Below are positions 7,505 through 39,906 of a stretch of DNA of 64,000 nt, in pieces. The DNA is from a virus: positions 28,421 through 92,420 of the IMG/VR virus record IMGVR_UViG_3300023082_000010, one strand, 5' to 3'. The stretch's first letter is position 1. Each line of letters starts with the position of its first letter. Under the pieces are notes generated by a model that saw nothing but the letters and a program-made list of their open reading frames with translations, did no database searches and was not told the origin of the DNA. The position numbers and the translations under genes were made by a program.

Positions 7505-8311
7505 TTAATATAAAATAATTTCAATATCTGATTCATCAAATTTATCAGAATATGTTGGAACTGAATTGTATGTAGCTGGGATGTCATACGGGAATGAGCC
7601 GTTATATGTCACAGACCAGCTAATTGGTGTGTCTGTACGAACATATTCACCGTATCTTACGTTAACACCAATTGTCTTAGGAATAAGGCCTGATGCGTAC
7701 CCTGAAGAGGAATCTGTATAATTCAATAGACCCCTTTCAAAATCAGATAAAGGTCTTCCAAATAACACCGTGACATTACCAGACTGCTCAGCACTCTCAT
7801 CTTCAATGGCAATAACTGAGCTGTCACCAAAGATAAGGTTCATACTCCTGATAAATTCTTCAGAAGTAGAAGATGTAGTATTCTTTAAAATCTTAGCTCT
7901 GATAAACAACCGATAGGTTTCATCATCAAGCTCGACATTCCCACCTAATGGCTCACCAAGAGAGTAGAAAATGCTGCCAATTGTTGGGTCACTCAGAGTA
8001 CCCATAGACCCTGCTTTCAAAGCACCTTGAAAACCGAAGAATGTGTACAAGTCTGAGTTGAGCAACACCCTGTCTTGACCAACGATGCGCCCAAGGATAT
8101 TAAGCTGCTCACCTGTTGCTGTGTCTAGTGAGCGAAGTTGCATAAGGTCTTTAAAGACAGACTGGATTTCGACTTGGGCCGATATCATCAGTCTTAGAAA
8201 TCGGTCCAGCACCTTCGCGCCAGTATCAGTGTTTGGATCATAGCGAAACTGCTCAGTTATTCTTGAGCGTGCAACACCTAGGTAGTCTTCTTCAATAAAT
8301 TCATTCAACAT
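7505..8311 (-). CDS. baseplate protein, DUF2612 type
   Basis: 268 aa, beginning MLNEFIEEDYLGVARSRITE. The LDTATGEQLNILGRIVGQ motif followed by DDETYRLFIRAKILKN is typical of DUF2612 baseplate-wedge/tail proteins, which follow the J protein in many myoviruses. The order J (8326) then DUF2612 then fibre matches a P2/Mu-like baseplate assembly line. It probably links the wedge to the fibres. Confidence 0.8.
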   Translation of the reverse strand: MLNEFIEEDYLGVARSRITEQFRYDPNTDTGAKVLDRFLRLMISAQVEIQSVFKDLMQLRSLDTATGEQLNILGRIVGQDRVLLNSDLYTFFGFQGALKAGSMGTLSDPTIGSIFYSLGEPLGGNVELDDETYRLFIRAKILKNTTSSTSEEFIRSMNLIFGDSSVIAIEDESAEQSGNVTVLFGRPLSDFERGLLNYTDSSSGYASGLIPKTIGVNVRYGEYVRTDTPISWSVTYNGSFPYDIPATYNSVPTYSDKFDESDIEIILY

Positions 8312-8325
8312 TTAGAAGACCTCAT

Positions 8326-9765
8326 TTATGATATAACTATGTTGGACGCAGACAGCGTGGCGATCTGCTGAAAGCTGATAGGAATATTGATGACGCCTGT
8401 TGGACTAGCAGCTGTACCAATCCGGAGACTGTTGACAAAATGACCGGGAATACTATTAATTGGCGTATAAAGACGGCTGTAGATAACATCATCCCCAATA
8501 CCTAAATTATTATTGAAGTATTCTATCAAAGCCGTTTTGATGGCATCATCGCCATTACCGGGATAAGAGCTATCTTTGGTCAAGCTGATTGTGATATAAA
8601 TAGGCACAGGATCTGGGCGCTTAAATGCAATATTATGAGCAAACCCTTGTGTGTCATAAATCACAACAACTGTGTCACCAAAACTTCTGATCCCCATTGG
8701 TTTGTTTTCCCAAATAGCTTGTCCAATCTCTGAGGACAAACCACCAAGAACAATAGGAAGAAAGCTGTGAGATGGGATCCCCATGCTATCTGTTACATCA
8801 CTATCATTTTCATACACAACTACTTGATCAACACCACTAATATCAATCAATGCTGAATAAATACTGTCCACTGTTGAGCTTGCACGTTCAAACTTGGTGT
8901 TCCTAAAACGGATACGAAGCTCTTCATCTGTCTCAATGTTACGTCCCTCAGATGCAGCAAGGGGGTTTGTAACGTTATCCCAGCCAAGTTGAGGGGTTAG
9001 GATGTTGGTTAATGTACCCACTTCAGATGCAACAGGACCAGCTTCATCAGCCACCACTTCACCTATCTTCTGAATCTTGGTAATGCCAAGGTTTGCAGAG
9101 GTGGTGAGATTAACTACAGAGAAGGGGTCAACTCGTGTAAGAGTGAGGCTTGTACCATTAATACTTGCAGAAAAAGAGGGGTGTGAGACGCCTACAACAG
9201 CTGCAAGACCTGCTACAATGGATGCAGCTGTAGCACCAACTGTTGAGGTATAATTGATGGTGTTTGTTGTGGTTATGCTTTGATATGTGATGGTGTAGAG
9301 CGCGCTATCAGCAATCACTAGAGGAGTGAAGCTGCCACCACTTGCACCTGTAGCTGATAGTGTGACAGGAGCTACAAGAGTCCACTGTGTACGGTCTACA
9401 GAGCTACCGATAGAAAGGTTGTTTGCAATAACAGTGTCCGTGTCACCTGTGAGCAACACTTGAGCTGTGGAGAATGTCTGCTCTTGGCGTGTAATACCGC
9501 CCAAAGCTACAAGGTTATCAAGAGCAATGCCCATAGATGTGTTTGGGTCAAAGGCTGCATAGTCTTGTTGAGCTGCTTCCCATAGGTCTGCAAGGGACGG
9601 AGAGATTGTATTAATCAATCGACCTAGAACAGCACTGTCACTGACATCTACCTGATCGCCTACCGCTACTTGATCTTGAAACAACTCAATAGCTTTAGCG
9701 CGTAAATCTGAGACAACCTCAGTTAGCCTCTTAATTGCAAAACCTTGGTCAGAGATACCCGCCAT
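8326..9765 (-). CDS. baseplate J-like wedge protein
   Basis: 479 aa. Start MAGISDQGFAIKRLTEVVSDLRAKA and the features F-x-P-N-T-S-M-G-I-A-L-D-N-L-V-A-L-G-G, G-R-N-I-E-T-D-E-E-L-R-x-R and IYSALIDISGVDQVVVYEN are characteristic of the Mu gp47/P2 J baseplate family. It forms the wedge that joins the central hub to peripheral fibres. It is flanked by gp25-like and DUF2612 genes, as expected. Confidence 0.92.
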   Translation of the reverse strand: MAGISDQGFAIKRLTEVVSDLRAKAIELFQDQVAVGDQVDVSDSAVLGRLINTISPSLADLWEAAQQDYAAFDPNTSMGIALDNLVALGGITRQEQTFSTAQVLLTGDTDTVIANNLSIGSSVDRTQWTLVAPVTLSATGASGGSFTPLVIADSALYTITYQSITTTNTINYTSTVGATAASIVAGLAAVVGVSHPSFSASINGTSLTLTRVDPFSVVNLTTSANLGITKIQKIGEVVADEAGPVASEVGTLTNILTPQLGWDNVTNPLAASEGRNIETDEELRIRFRNTKFERASSTVDSIYSALIDISGVDQVVVYENDSDVTDSMGIPSHSFLPIVLGGLSSEIGQAIWENKPMGIRSFGDTVVVIYDTQGFAHNIAFKRPDPVPIYITISLTKDSSYPGNGDDAIKTALIEYFNNNLGIGDDVIYSRLYTPINSIPGHFVNSLRIGTAASPTGVINIPISFQQIATLSASNIVIS

Positions 9766-17412: not shown

Positions 17413-18696
17413 TTATACAGAAAGGAAGCCATTTACGATGACTTTGCGAATGGACCCGGCCAGACGTGCCCGGAATACGAAAACACCAGCTGTACGAGCA
17501 GCACGAAGTGTTACTGGGATGTCCAATACATCAGGTGTAGTTACAGTCCAACCACGAGCAATCAAGCCATTAGCTTCTGCTTGAGAGAGTACGGAACGAA
17601 TTTCATTTTCAATGATAACCAAACCTTGGTTTGTCATTGGGATTTTCAAAGTGTTGATCAGGCGGAAGTAGATTTGCTCTTGCAGACGAGCATAAAGCCA
17701 GTCCACTCCAATCGTTTCGTCAATCGGTGTACCATCAAACATGTTACCATCTTGCATCACGTTGACACCACCAACAGCGGTGTACATGTTCATGTTCTTG
17801 GCACGAAGATTTGCACGAGCAGTGTCGCTAATGTTGCTGACAGTTACGCCAGATACACGTTTGAAATCCCAGTCGTTGCTGCCCGGAGTATAGGCAAGTT
17901 GAGCCCCCATCCAAGCTGCTTCAGGGTACTCAGTGTCGGCAGTAGGCAGATAGACGCCATAGGTGCGAGACGCGCTAGCAGCACTCAAAACAGCGGCAAT
18001 ATCGGTTGTTCCTGTGGTGATTACAGCAGGGTCTTGACTAGATGTACCGAAGATTTTACGGCGACTTGCAACAGCATTACTAAGAGCTACCACCTCAGCT
18101 TGAACATGGGTATCAGCAACTACTGCATACCAAGTGTTGTTAACTTGAGCAACGGCGTCCAAAGCATCAGCCATAGCTTCAGTTGACGCAACGTTGGTCT
18201 GAGTAAGGTTTGAGCTGCCAGTTACGCTCCAGTTGGAACCGGGAGTGGTTGGTGCCACAGTGAGGCTAGTTGTACCAGAAAGAGTAATGCCTGCTGGTGT
18301 ACCAATTGCAGCTTTCAAGCCAGTAACGATGCTAGTGGCAGTAGCACCAGTCCCAGAAGTGAAGGTGTACGGAACACCATTGACTGTGACAGTGTAGACA
18401 GTTGCATCTGCTACAGTTGGCACCAGTGTAGCACTATCAATCTGGCGACGACCAATTACGATACTTGGTGGGACAGCGCCAACAGCGCTTTGACCAAATT
18501 CTTTCTGAGCGATGATGTAAGCTTTGTCGGTAGCATTAAAGTCTTCTGCAACAGCATCCATGTCACCATAGACACGGGCACGTTCAGGGAAATTAGTGAA
18601 GGATGCCAGAATCAGGGGGATATTGAAACTAGCTGTGCTAACAGCGGTACTCTCCCGGCTAATCGTAATTTGTACTACGTTATCAATCTCACTCAT
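17413..18696 (-). CDS. contractile tail sheath protein (DUF3383-like)
   Basis: 427 aa. N-terminal VVQITISRESTAVSTASFNIPLI and later FPERARVYGDMDAVAEDF match DUF3383 sheath proteins. The C-terminal part (DWLYARLQEQIYFRLINTLKIPMTNQGL) is the conserved handshake domain. An inserted loop domain (~100-170) is Thr/Val-rich. The start ATG (18696-18694) overlaps the stop of a GIY-YIG endonuclease gene (ATGA). Confidence 0.92.
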   Translation of the reverse strand: MSEIDNVVQITISRESTAVSTASFNIPLILASFTNFPERARVYGDMDAVAEDFNATDKAYIIAQKEFGQSAVGAVPPSIVIGRRQIDSATLVPTVADATVYTVTVNGVPYTFTSGTGATATSIVTGLKAAIGTPAGITLSGTTSLTVAPTTPGSNWSVTGSSNLTQTNVASTEAMADALDAVAQVNNTWYAVVADTHVQAEVVALSNAVASRRKIFGTSSQDPAVITTGTTDIAAVLSAASASRTYGVYLPTADTEYPEAAWMGAQLAYTPGSNDWDFKRVSGVTVSNISDTARANLRAKNMNMYTAVGGVNVMQDGNMFDGTPIDETIGVDWLYARLQEQIYFRLINTLKIPMTNQGLVIIENEIRSVLSQAEANGLIARGWTVTTPDVLDIPVTLRAARTAGVFVFRARLAGSIRKVIVNGFLSV

Positions 18697-19478
18697 TGGT
18701 AAGGCCTCTTGCTGATTTCATAAGAATATTCATAGGTAAATCCTTCTTTGTTTTCATTTAAATTGTTAGAGATTTTACTTCTAGAAATACCTGTCTGTTT
18801 TGAGGCGCTTAGTATGGAGTCATAAACAATATTATCTATTTTAAACTTCCACTTACCAACTCTAGAATTCTTATTTTTAATGCTTATATCTTCTTCTACC
18901 AAACCTAGTGATATATGGAGATATAAAAGCTCGGGATCTTCATTTAAAGCTTCTGCTGCTTCTCGTAAAGTATTAAACCAAATACCTCTTACATACTGAG
19001 GAGCATCATATACAGACCCTTTTCTTGGATTAGATACTTCACCTAATATCCCTTGCCTTTTTCTGTTATGGAAGGTTACAGCAGCCATGCCAAGAGAAGC
19101 TAAGGCCACTCTTCTATTAGGAAACCAGAAACCTGATACAAATACTGGTTCATCATCAGACCTAGATGCAACTTTATGGCCTGTTCCACCAGCACCACCC
19201 GGCTTGATGTTGTAACCATTTTCCACTGTATTAAAAGCTGAAATGGCTTTTACTTCTAGATCATAAATATATTCTTTTGAGCCAACACATAACACATCAA
19301 AACTGAAATTCTCCGGGCCGTATTTATTTACAGCCTTTTTAATGATTGAATTTTTATTTTGATTAGGGTTGTAGAAGTGTTGTTTCTTTCGTGCGCTTAA
19401 GTTCTTAGTAACACCAATGTATAGCTTTCCATTTACCAAATTCGTAATCTTATAAAGATAGTGAACAATTTCTTTCAT
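18693..19478 (-). CDS. GIY-YIG homing endonuclease
   Basis: 261 aa. Motifs: YLYKITNLVNGKLYIGVTKN (GIY-YIG equivalents), a catalytic Arg in LSARKKQHF, the conserved Glu in LEVKAISAFNT, and NGYNIKPGGAGG. The C-terminal part has NUMOD-like DNA-binding repeats (GIWFNTLREAAEALN, SILSASKQTGISRSKISNNLN). It lies between the neck and sheath genes, same strand, with an ATGA overlap to the sheath gene. No intron signature was seen in the sheath gene, so it appears to be free-standing. Confidence 0.92.
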   Translation of the reverse strand: MKEIVHYLYKITNLVNGKLYIGVTKNLSARKKQHFYNPNQNKNSIIKKAVNKYGPENFSFDVLCVGSKEYIYDLEVKAISAFNTVENGYNIKPGGAGGTGHKVASRSDDEPVFVSGFWFPNRRVALASLGMAAVTFHNRKRQGILGEVSNPRKGSVYDAPQYVRGIWFNTLREAAEALNEDPELLYLHISLGLVEEDISIKNKNSRVGKWKFKIDNIVYDSILSASKQTGISRSKISNNLNENKEGFTYEYSYEISKRPYQ

Positions 19479-35802: not shown

Positions 35803-35879
35803 TGGTGGGTCCATCCAGACTTGAACTGGAAATCAACGAATTATGAGTTCGCTGCATTAACCAATTATGCTACAGACCC
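35803..35879 (-). tRNA. tRNA with CAT anticodon (Met or Ile2)
   Basis: Full cloverleaf with encoded CCA: acceptor GGGTCTG/TGGACCC, D-arm GCAT...ATGC, anticodon stem GCGAA/TTCGT with loop CTCATAA (anticodon at 35845-35843), T-arm TCCAG-TTCAAGT-CTGGA. It could be elongator tRNA-Met or tRNA-Ile with modified C34; sequence alone does not decide. Confidence 0.93.
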
Positions 35880-37336: not shown

Positions 37337-37530
37337 TTATAAATCTCCGGGATACAAAAATTAACAAAATCAGTATTACTCAACCCTGTGAATCTCCATT
37401 CTTCTAAAGTATCATCAGAAATAGTAATTTTCTCTCCGTCTAGATACCACTCAATATCTTTGATGTCCAGACTATTGATCTGATTACGTTTTGATTGTGC
37501 ATCTAGGATGTCTTCAATATTAAGTTTCAT
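37333..37530 (-). CDS. hypothetical acidic protein
   Basis: 65 aa from MKLNIEDILDAQSKRNQ; GGAG is 6 nt before this ATG, which overlaps the preceding stop (ATGA). No recognised domain. Confidence 0.6.
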   Translation of the reverse strand: MKLNIEDILDAQSKRNQINSLDIKDIEWYLDGEKITISDDTLEEWRFTGLSNTDFVNFCIPEIYK

Positions 37531-37808
37531 TTTAAACTCCACTCTAAAGCTTTAAGTAGTACATCACCGTGACATGCTTGTGGTTTACAGAAACAACCTA
37601 AAACAGCGCCATTCAGTTCATGTAAAGATTCTTTAGTAACTTCCCCAGATTTGATTTGTTCCCAAAGATGGAGTCTATACTTCTCAATAACTTCTTCTCG
37701 AGTGCCATCTTTACCAATGCTGAAAGGGTTGCCCCATTTAGAACCACGACCAATATAGATGTCATAGTCCTCTTTGTATTTGTTAACTACTCTTGTATTA
37801 GGATTCAC
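37527..37808 (-). CDS. DUF4326 protein
   Basis: 93 aa, GTG start. IYIGRGSKWGNPFSIG and GAVLGCFCKPQACHGDVL are the two conserved DUF4326 motifs (Cys/His may bind metal). Function unknown; common in phages. GTG overlaps the preceding stop (GTGA). Confidence 0.88.
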   Translation of the reverse strand: MNPNTRVVNKYKEDYDIYIGRGSKWGNPFSIGKDGTREEVIEKYRLHLWEQIKSGEVTKESLHELNGAVLGCFCKPQACHGDVLLKALEWSLK

Positions 37809-39163
37809 TTCTTATCCACCTTGCAAAATGTGGTATCTCCTAATACTGTTTTCCATGCTGTGAACATGGCCTCTCTCAAATCATCTTCTGCTGATTCCTT
37901 AACCAGCACACTATCATGATAAGACAATACGGCATGACCTTTCTCACCCATTGCACCAACAATGTTCATCATAATCTTACTGTCAATATTTTGAAGCATG
38001 ATACCACCATCGTTAAAGAACATGTCGCGAATAAAGTCATTATGACTCCTTACAGCTTCTAGCACCTTACCATAATCTGTCTTACCAACTAGGGCATAAA
38101 ATTCTTGATCTTCAACCTCCTTCTCTCGATCAAGCTTCACCTTGTTACCAAGTGTCCAAGCTGCACTATTCATATCATCAGAGTTCATACCAATGAGAAT
38201 TCCAAGCTTTGCTAGTGAACGCCTTGGGTTATGCTTTTTACCTGTCAAGTTTTCCCATTGTTCTTTTAGCTTCTCATCCACTTTAACAAATGATAAGTCA
38301 GCATCATAAGGGGAGAACTCACTCCCCATTACATCATAAATACTAAAGCCATCATTGTTATACATCTGTTGGTAGCAGATACTTGGGTGAATAGCTGAGT
38401 AGTCTAGCTCCACTACAGCTTCACCATCAATTCGCAAGGACGAAGCCCTGATGTGTTGTGGAAGAAGCTGAACTCCACCACCAAGCGTGTAAAGTCTGCC
38501 GCCTTTATCCAAATCACCACTGAAGATACGACGATATGCAACATCTGCAATTGGCTTGCCATCAAATGTGATATCTGCACCTTCCAAACTGTTATTCATG
38601 TTCCTCACCTCAGATTTGATATCTTTAAAGCCCTTGTGACCACGGGTGGACATTAATTGTTTTGTCTCACGATTGCGTATAATAGCAAGATCACTTTCTT
38701 CAAGATCCCGCCATAGATTGTAAGACACATCCACCCCTTCCCACATATCTAGTGTTCGCTTACGAAAGATTAGGCATGAGGGGACAACAACATCAGGTTT
38801 TGGTTTACCTTTGATTGTCTTCCAAGATTTAACATACCCTTTGTAAAGATCAATATAACCTTTCTGCTCAAGGAAATCAACTAATGATTTAACCTTCCTG
38901 TATCCAATACCCTGAACAGAGGCAGTATAGCTATTCTTATCCAAGCTAAATACAAATCCATTAGCTTTATGTTTGATAGCACGAGCACTATTGCTGATCC
39001 ACCACCTGACTGCTTCTTCCCATCTTTCTTCTGTATGGTCTAGTACCTGATCTACTATCTTCTTATAGTATTTAGATTCATGATAATAAATATAACTTCG
39101 TACACATCTTAGATTAATAGAATACACTTCTGATTCTTTCATCTTACTTAATTCATAAATCAA
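37805..39163 (-). CDS. compact family-A polymerase-like protein
   Basis: 452 aa, TTG start with GGAGGAG 5 nt upstream. Motif A-like VVELDYSAIHPSI (Asp254), motif B-like RRSLAKLGILIGMN (residues 314-327, Arg/Lys/Gly pattern as in PolA R-x4-K-x6-Y-G) and motif C-like SYHDSVLV (His416-Asp417). No exonuclease motifs are seen. The N-terminal 220 residues are helical and basic, with a winged-helix-like part (VKSLVDFLEQKGYI). A known but poorly studied phage/prophage family has the same core. Whether it makes DNA, RNA or neither is unknown. Confidence 0.6.
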   Translation of the reverse strand: MIYELSKMKESEVYSINLRCVRSYIYYHESKYYKKIVDQVLDHTEERWEEAVRWWISNSARAIKHKANGFVFSLDKNSYTASVQGIGYRKVKSLVDFLEQKGYIDLYKGYVKSWKTIKGKPKPDVVVPSCLIFRKRTLDMWEGVDVSYNLWRDLEESDLAIIRNRETKQLMSTRGHKGFKDIKSEVRNMNNSLEGADITFDGKPIADVAYRRIFSGDLDKGGRLYTLGGGVQLLPQHIRASSLRIDGEAVVELDYSAIHPSICYQQMYNNDGFSIYDVMGSEFSPYDADLSFVKVDEKLKEQWENLTGKKHNPRRSLAKLGILIGMNSDDMNSAAWTLGNKVKLDREKEVEDQEFYALVGKTDYGKVLEAVRSHNDFIRDMFFNDGGIMLQNIDSKIMMNIVGAMGEKGHAVLSYHDSVLVKESAEDDLREAMFTAWKTVLGDTTFCKVDKK

Positions 39164-39242
39164 TTACTCTCCTCCTTCTTGGTGTATGTGTGTGTAGTAG
39201 TAATAGAATGATAGATAAGTACTAGATACATGTATTCCAGTA

Positions 39243-39456: not shown

Positions 39457-39501
39457 GACTAGACACAAACAGATATGCACATATGTGTGCGGGAGAGAAT
39501 G

Positions 39502-39906
39502 ATGATTAAAGGACAAAGGAATCAGCTAGCTAACGTTGGAAATCAATTCCAGACTAAAGTGAAAAAGGTGTTATGTGTCTGCTCTGCTGGGATGCTCAGA
39601 AGTCCAACTCTGGCAAACGTACTTCATAAAGAGTATGGGTTCAATACTAGGGCTGTTGGTGCAGACAAAGAATTTGCACTGATCCTCATTTCACAAGCAT
39701 TGATCTGGTGGGCGGATGAAATTGTATTTGTAAATGGCTCAGCTTACTACAGTCTTGATCAAGAAGAGAAGGACGAAATTGATGATGTTGGTGTTGTCAC
39801 AACTCTTTTAGATATTCAGGATGATTTTGACTGGAATGAAAATGGTTTGAAAAGTCTTCTACTTCATGAGTACAATCGTGTCTGGAATATTAAGGAGGAA
39901 GAATGA
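39502..39906 (+). CDS. low-molecular-weight tyrosine-phosphatase-like protein
   Basis: 134 aa starting MIKGQRNQLAN (GGAG 6 nt before this second of two ATGs). VLCVCSAGMLRSPTLANVL holds the P-loop C27-x5-R33-S/T; a distal Asp (IQDDFDW) could be the acid. The fold is typical of LMW-PTP relatives in phages and archaea. First gene of the rightward operon, so probably acts early on a host phosphoprotein or phospho-substrate; the target is unknown. Confidence 0.75.
   Translation: MIKGQRNQLANVGNQFQTKVKKVLCVCSAGMLRSPTLANVLHKEYGFNTRAVGADKEFALILISQALIWWADEIVFVNGSAYYSLDQEEKDEIDDVGVVTTLLDIQDDFDWNENGLKSLLLHEYNRVWNIKEEE

Follow-up and report, generated by a model that had tools for sequence, protein, structure and literature searches.

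Genes at the locus

The window, the whole stretch of 64,000 nucleotides that was analyzed, comprises positions 28421-92420 of a 92,420-base IMG/VR virus contig. It contains a gene for a divPolA2/TV-Pol-like family-A polymerase of 452 amino acids (37805..39163, stop codon included), which is encoded on the minus strand, a detail absent from the initial annotation. Translation starts at a TTG codon, as in four close relatives, and a Shine-Dalgarno sequence AGGAGG (39171..39176, minus strand) is located 7 nt upstream of this start. Comparison with four close relatives resulted in dN/dS values of 0.027-0.090, which shows that the reading frame is a real gene under strong purifying selection. The initial annotation had placed the gene under its own promoter. 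This was rejected, as the 11 promoter-like sites found correspond to chance level (12.3 expected in shuffled sequences); upstream of the gene, the highest-scoring site reaches 9/12.

The downstream neighbor is a DUF4326 gene (37527..37808, minus strand; PF14216, E 5.1e-29) that overlaps the polymerase gene by 4 bp. Its proximity, as described before, is thus correct, but DUF4326 is not conserved beside the relatives and was rejected as an operon partner. Among the relatives no conserved neighbor of the phage copies, including DUF4326 and repair genes, was seen. Likewise, no integrase, resolvase or transposase was seen around the phage copies, and no D5-like helicase was found among the polymerase neighbors scanned with Pfam.

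Several other genes of the phage were recorded. The gene at 39475-39906 contains VLCVCSAGMLRSPTLANVL, which by eye resembles low-molecular-weight phosphotyrosine phosphatases, and gave no Pfam or PHROG match. A GIY-YIG-like gene (LYKITNLVNGKLYIGVT, by eye) is present among the tail genes at 18693-19478 and is possibly a homing endonuclease. A single tRNA-Met gene is found at 35803-35879 on the minus strand. Two proteins of phrog_2467, a family of unknown function, with a P-loop-like start, and a third N-terminal look-alike are encoded in the same phage (window 52974-54281; locus L132 4141-5379, which is G000:C1 4141-5379; locus L133 9518-10756).

The phage encodes its own replication set, located outside the window on the same record (L132). 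It includes a 742-aa DNA polymerase (phrog_1252, 6e-177; 45% identical to Barba gp022), a 619-aa primase/helicase (phrog_239; 53% identical to Barba gp023), a gp2.5-like SSB and an exonuclease. Therefore, the small enzyme is an extra polymerase. A search for family-B polymerases with PF00136 in 12 phages gave no match, which reflects a limit of that model, since PHROG does detect the 742-aa polymerase; a PF00476 search of the window phage also gave no match.

The window protein belongs to the divPolA2 group

PHROG_4756, annotated as unknown function, matched the window polymerase over its full length (E 1.5e-82). No Pfam family, including PF00476 and the nuclease domains, matched at E <= 10, and no matches were obtained in NCBIfam, in PDB sequence searches or in a search of plasmids for relatives. 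The sole match of an early family profile, TRF2 (E 0.1), was taken as chance. Alignment of the family with one phage PolA by hhalign gave no signal; with seven phage PolAs, a weak signal (P 0.016) was obtained around motif A only.

By tblastn, 242 phage records matched the window polymerase, and 230 of these matches cover at least 80% of the protein. The hosts are mainly Rheinheimera (115) and Vibrio (100), and also include Aeromonas, Pseudoalteromonas, Shewanella and others. The copy of Pseudomonas phage vB_PsaM_M1 carries the annotation DNA polymerase. Barba1A gp034 was matched by the family HMM (6.6e-51) and by tblastn (7e-17, spanning residues 56-438), and several phage relatives contain a second, diverged copy.

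The window protein is thus a member of divPolA2, a group already named in 2024 as an extra PolA-like protein of 110 barbaviruses and relatives, with up to three paralogues, a variable neighborhood, a palm that looks active and an N-terminal domain without detected similarity (Yutin et al., 2024, PMC11348598). Two roles were suggested for it in that study, repair polymerase or RNA polymerase, and TV-Pol was mentioned once, as background on small viruses. In the literature searched, the name divPolA2 occurs in this paper and its preprint and nowhere else; the transcriptome study of barbaviruses gives, in its main text, no expression timing for gp034. The window protein is similar to barbavirus divPolA2 in length, fold, motifs and its status as an extra polymerase, and shares the variable neighborhood and, in some phages, the paralogues. 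It differs from Barba1A at residue 259 of motif A, where His is present instead of Trp, and its N-terminal domain looks winged-helix-like, in contrast to the lack of similarity reported.

Predicted fold and domains

The initial annotation had described a miniature family-A polymerase-like protein and named structure prediction as the way to refute this. The AlphaFold2 model, based on an alignment of 82 sequences, was predicted with high confidence (mean pLDDT 94.5, pTM 0.89) and contains a palm and fingers of the PolA/T7-RNAP type, so the miniature-polymerase reading withstood this check. All fifty matches listed by Foldseek against the PDB are family-A DNA polymerases. With VIA, the apicoplast polymerase apPol (9qsc, Z 13.9, 244 residues, 4.2 A) and the yeast mitochondrial RNA polymerase (8q63, Z 13.8, 254 residues, 4.2 A) aligned almost equally well, followed by T7 DNA polymerase (Z 13.0) and T7 RNA polymerase (Z 12.7), so that DNA and RNA polymerases are tied structurally. 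In these alignments to PolA and single-subunit RNA polymerases the palm and fingers core extends over approximately residues 200-452 (37808..38566, minus strand). The alignment to PolA begins at residue 61 or ~153, and this, together with the lack of a Pfam match at E <= 10, confirmed that exonuclease domains are absent.

The N-terminal domain (approximately residues 45-150; 38714..39031, minus strand) was folded alone with a pLDDT of 90. Individual Foldseek matches were weak (best E 0.09) and were accepted only because most of them share the winged-helix fold (CodY, MarR, PerR/Fur, GntR, TcpK and eS10); VIA alignments gave Z of 5-5.7. The winged-helix-like N-terminus noted earlier was therefore borne out weakly but consistently, and the domain is likely a winged helix. 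In an alignment that takes in the bacterial relatives, DxLExxGxI is a majority pattern of this domain.

Catalytic motifs and conserved residues

DYSAIHPSI, RRSLAKLGILIGMN and SYHDSVLV, which had been recognized as PolA motifs A, B and C, are all present and follow each other in this order. G222-R223 (38495..38500) contains the hairpin arginine typical of PolA-superfamily enzymes; motif A, ELDYSAIHP, with the catalytic D254 and the steric-gate residue H259 is found at residues 252-260 (38384..38410), motif B on the O-helix with R315xxxK319 and N327 at residues 315-327 (38183..38221), and motif C, HDS, with the catalytic D417 at residues 416-418 (37910..37918), all on the minus strand. In the predicted secondary structure, D254 closes the palm strand 248-255, R315 and K319 lie within helix 313-327, the O-helix equivalent, and H416-D417 occupy the turn that joins palm strands 413-415 and 418-422 into a hairpin. 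This layout, as taken from the secondary structure of the model, matches that of Pol I.

G222, R223, R239, D254, K319 and D417 are invariant in 99 aligned relatives, and H416 (93/99), R315 (90/99) and N327 (88/99) are strongly conserved. Many of the relatives were collected with the motif A pattern E[LVM]D[YF][SK]x[IML]HP, so the conservation of motif A is partly built in; in paralogues obtained without the pattern, D254 and H259 are kept and P260 is variable. Motif A of Barba1A gp034 reads DYSQLWP, with D254 kept and Trp at 259. Residue 259 is His in all 99 aligned rows and Trp in Barba1A, in contrast to the Gly of T7 RNAP; H259 is therefore not invariant throughout the family.

The steric-gate position, fifth in line after the Asp of motif A, is Glu (E710) in Pol I and Gly (G542) in T7 RNA polymerase; residue 259 was equated with it by ungapped motif alignment and by reference to these residues. 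The bulky His or Trp at this position suggests selection of dNTPs. At position 327 the family mostly has Asn, whereas Pol I and T7 RNAP both have Tyr there. GRxY and HDS resemble the motifs of T7-like RNA polymerases, and the GRxY hairpin is as RNA-polymerase-like as it is DNA-polymerase-like.

Bacterial relatives in tRNA islands

A genome scan identified 63 loci with relatives, which were confirmed by tblastn. An integrase-type gene was found in 42 of 62 bacterial loci, a resolvase in 17 and either of them in 44. Since only 42 of the 48 integrase-type proteins match PF00589 (tyrosine integrase), the true number of integrase loci may be slightly lower. For 14 of 22 tRNA-integrase pairs, a direct repeat of the tRNA sequence was observed with the polymerase inside; the repeats are 14 to 60 bases long, the shortest being weak, and in L108 the repeat is a second tRNA-Gly. 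The repeat-bounded islands range from ~6.4 kb (L092) to 15 kb (L127). In the compact island L092 (4844-11291), direct repeats enclose an integrase and the TV-Pol-like polymerase; other such islands are L082, L087, L097, L102, L105, L107, L108, L124, L126, L127 and L129. The few island neighbors that were scanned included no further recognizable replication gene.

In an unrooted tree obtained by a quick search, 37 phage copies group with one contig of a metagenome-assembled genome (L069) in a clade supported by an SH-aLRT of 99, near which island copies of Alteromonas, Psychrosphaera, Marinobacter, Reinekea and Aestuariispira are placed (fork 87). The phage clade therefore appears to sit among bacterial TV-Pol-like proteins. 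The L069 copy (7893-9350) is 49% identical to the window protein and lies inside the phage clade; its contig is assigned to a Bacteroidota MAG but probably derives from a phage and was binned together with the MAG.

Some further neighborhoods were recorded. Flavobacterial copies adjoin AAA_24 and DUF3871 genes, surroundings that may represent a phage-like module. In two different bacteria, the island polymerase gene is directly followed by an RNase HI gene (PF00075; L082 8993-9454 and L124 8780-9259). Polymerase genes of the Desulfovibrio group adjoin CRISPR genes, encoding Cas9 domains (L097 9170-12343) or a Cas3-type helicase (L071 9883-12219), and neighbor families are common to L101 and L097.

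Relation to TV-Pol and CcPol-MP

TV-Pols are proteins of 400-600 aa with a hairpin Arg, two Asp, RxxxK and no nuclease domain, which are encoded with an integrase, gamma-delta resolvase or transposase and in one subset are linked to a D5-like helicase (Iyer, Abhiman and Aravind, 2008, PMC2579912). The window protein shares the features of the protein itself (452 aa, R223, D254, R315xxxK319, D417, no Pfam nuclease), and its bacterial relatives occur with integrases and resolvases like the TV-Pols of mobile elements. Unlike the TV-Pols of small elements, the window copy belongs to a large phage that encodes a replication set of its own. We infer that divPolA2 is part of the broader TV-Pol radiation of polymerases from mobile elements, a placement based on shared features and gene context. 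Judged by its name, the Reinekea blandensis MED297 protein (L119) is probably one of the TV-Pols of that study.

The polymerase CcPol of SCCmec was counted in TV-Pol by Iyer et al., as stated by Rice (2023, PMC10061031). CcPol alone only extends primers, and together with its partner MP it primes DNA de novo, using dNTPs only (Bebel et al., 2020, PMC7581432). MP is an ssDNA-binding OB fold, and the last thumb helix is shortened by one turn compared with Pol I, a trait linked there to de novo initiation (Rice, 2023, PMC10061031). Like CcPol-MP and PolA-SSB pairs (PMC10061031), the window protein has a PolA-type catalytic core, and CcPol likewise belongs to a mobile element. However, CcPol keeps a partial exonuclease domain and has a separate OB-fold protein, whereas in the window protein a winged-helix-like domain is fused to the core, and no conserved neighbor was present among the relatives. 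Pipolin piPolB, cited in PMC10061031, serves as an analogy only, in that an integrative element encodes both a polymerase and an integrase; the polymerase is of family B and of an unrelated fold lineage.

Possible functions

The reading we prefer, with a probability of about 0.45, is that the window protein is an accessory, non-proofreading, DNA-making family-A polymerase that helps to start or restart DNA synthesis. The bulky His (Trp in Barba1A) at the steric gate would let it make DNA rather than RNA, and the winged-helix-like domain would bind DNA as a template-binding part comparable to that of CcPol-MP and would help the enzyme to start or restart synthesis with little or no primer. In the phage the enzyme would act as an auxiliary primase-polymerase, the main replicase being encoded elsewhere. 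Support is drawn from the catalytic core that appears intact, with its key residues fixed in 99 relatives, from purifying selection, the winged-helix-like N-terminal domain, the lack of an exonuclease in the model, the kinship with island polymerases suggested by sequence and the co-occurring replication set. By analogy with CcPol-MP priming, and with the His/Trp residue, a DNA-making, possibly self-starting accessory polymerase would be favored over an RNA polymerase. The phage primase and replicative polymerase would make priming redundant and count against an essential priming role, and the need of CcPol for an OB-fold partner, together with the lack of conserved phage neighbors, counts against priming by the window enzyme. 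The structural tie between DNA and RNA polymerases, the ambiguous GRxY hairpin and the Asn at position 327 also speak against the preferred reading.

A primer-dependent repair, gap-filling or translesion polymerase, with an identical core but limited to primer extension and used by the phage to tolerate damage or repair gaps, is a possible alternative that we consider somewhat unlikely. It fits an extra polymerase without proofreading domain beside a complete replication set, the variable neighborhood of the phage copies, also reported by Yutin et al. (PMC11348598), who list repair among their two roles, and the finding that CcPol without MP only extends primers (PMC7581432). Yet the bacterial relatives are located in integrase islands and not in repair operons, and no repair gene was seen to recur beside the polymerase. 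An RNA polymerase was the other role raised by Yutin et al. (PMC11348598), and a small single-subunit enzyme that transcribes some phage genes, with the winged helix recognizing promoters, would agree with VIA scores on par with those of DNA polymerases (mitochondrial 13.8, T7 RNAP 12.7). The T7-like GRxY and HDS would also fit. Nevertheless, it seems improbable given that the steric gate is His or Trp instead of Gly and that position 327, where RNAPs have Tyr, is mostly Asn. Moreover, the islands with relatives would be too small to need an RNA polymerase of their own, and CcPol, the only characterized TV-Pol, primes with dNTPs only (PMC7581432). Redundancy beside the phage polymerase and primase, and the atypical residues at the steric gate and at the position of Y766, could also indicate a catalytically idle or repurposed palm, for example one that binds DNA as a regulator or that inhibits another polymerase. 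This is highly improbable, because 99 relatives all keep the hairpin Arg, the O-helix Lys and the two Asp that bind metal, and dN/dS is 0.03-0.09.

The reading as an accessory DNA-making polymerase may be extended, although this is doubtful, to divPolA2 and the tRNA-island polymerases as one class, widespread and made up of single-chain, self-starting family-A primase-polymerases, in which a fused winged helix would replace the OB-fold partner of CcPol-MP and which some phages would have captured from islands.

Implications

The link to TV-Pol, the winged-helix reading and the island boundaries are added here, all by computation. For divPolA2, the group of this aquatic phage and its relatives whose function was left unsettled when it was described, the TV-Pol link offers a role in the initiation of DNA synthesis that can be tested. 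In the literature compared, CcPol-MP is the only PolA-type DNA polymerase shown to start chains de novo. Initiation by one polypeptide in the phage and island enzymes, if true, would illustrate how PolA-type enzymes acquire or retain this ability, would have implications for where T7-like RNA polymerases come from and would hint at the way in which very small tRNA islands replicate.
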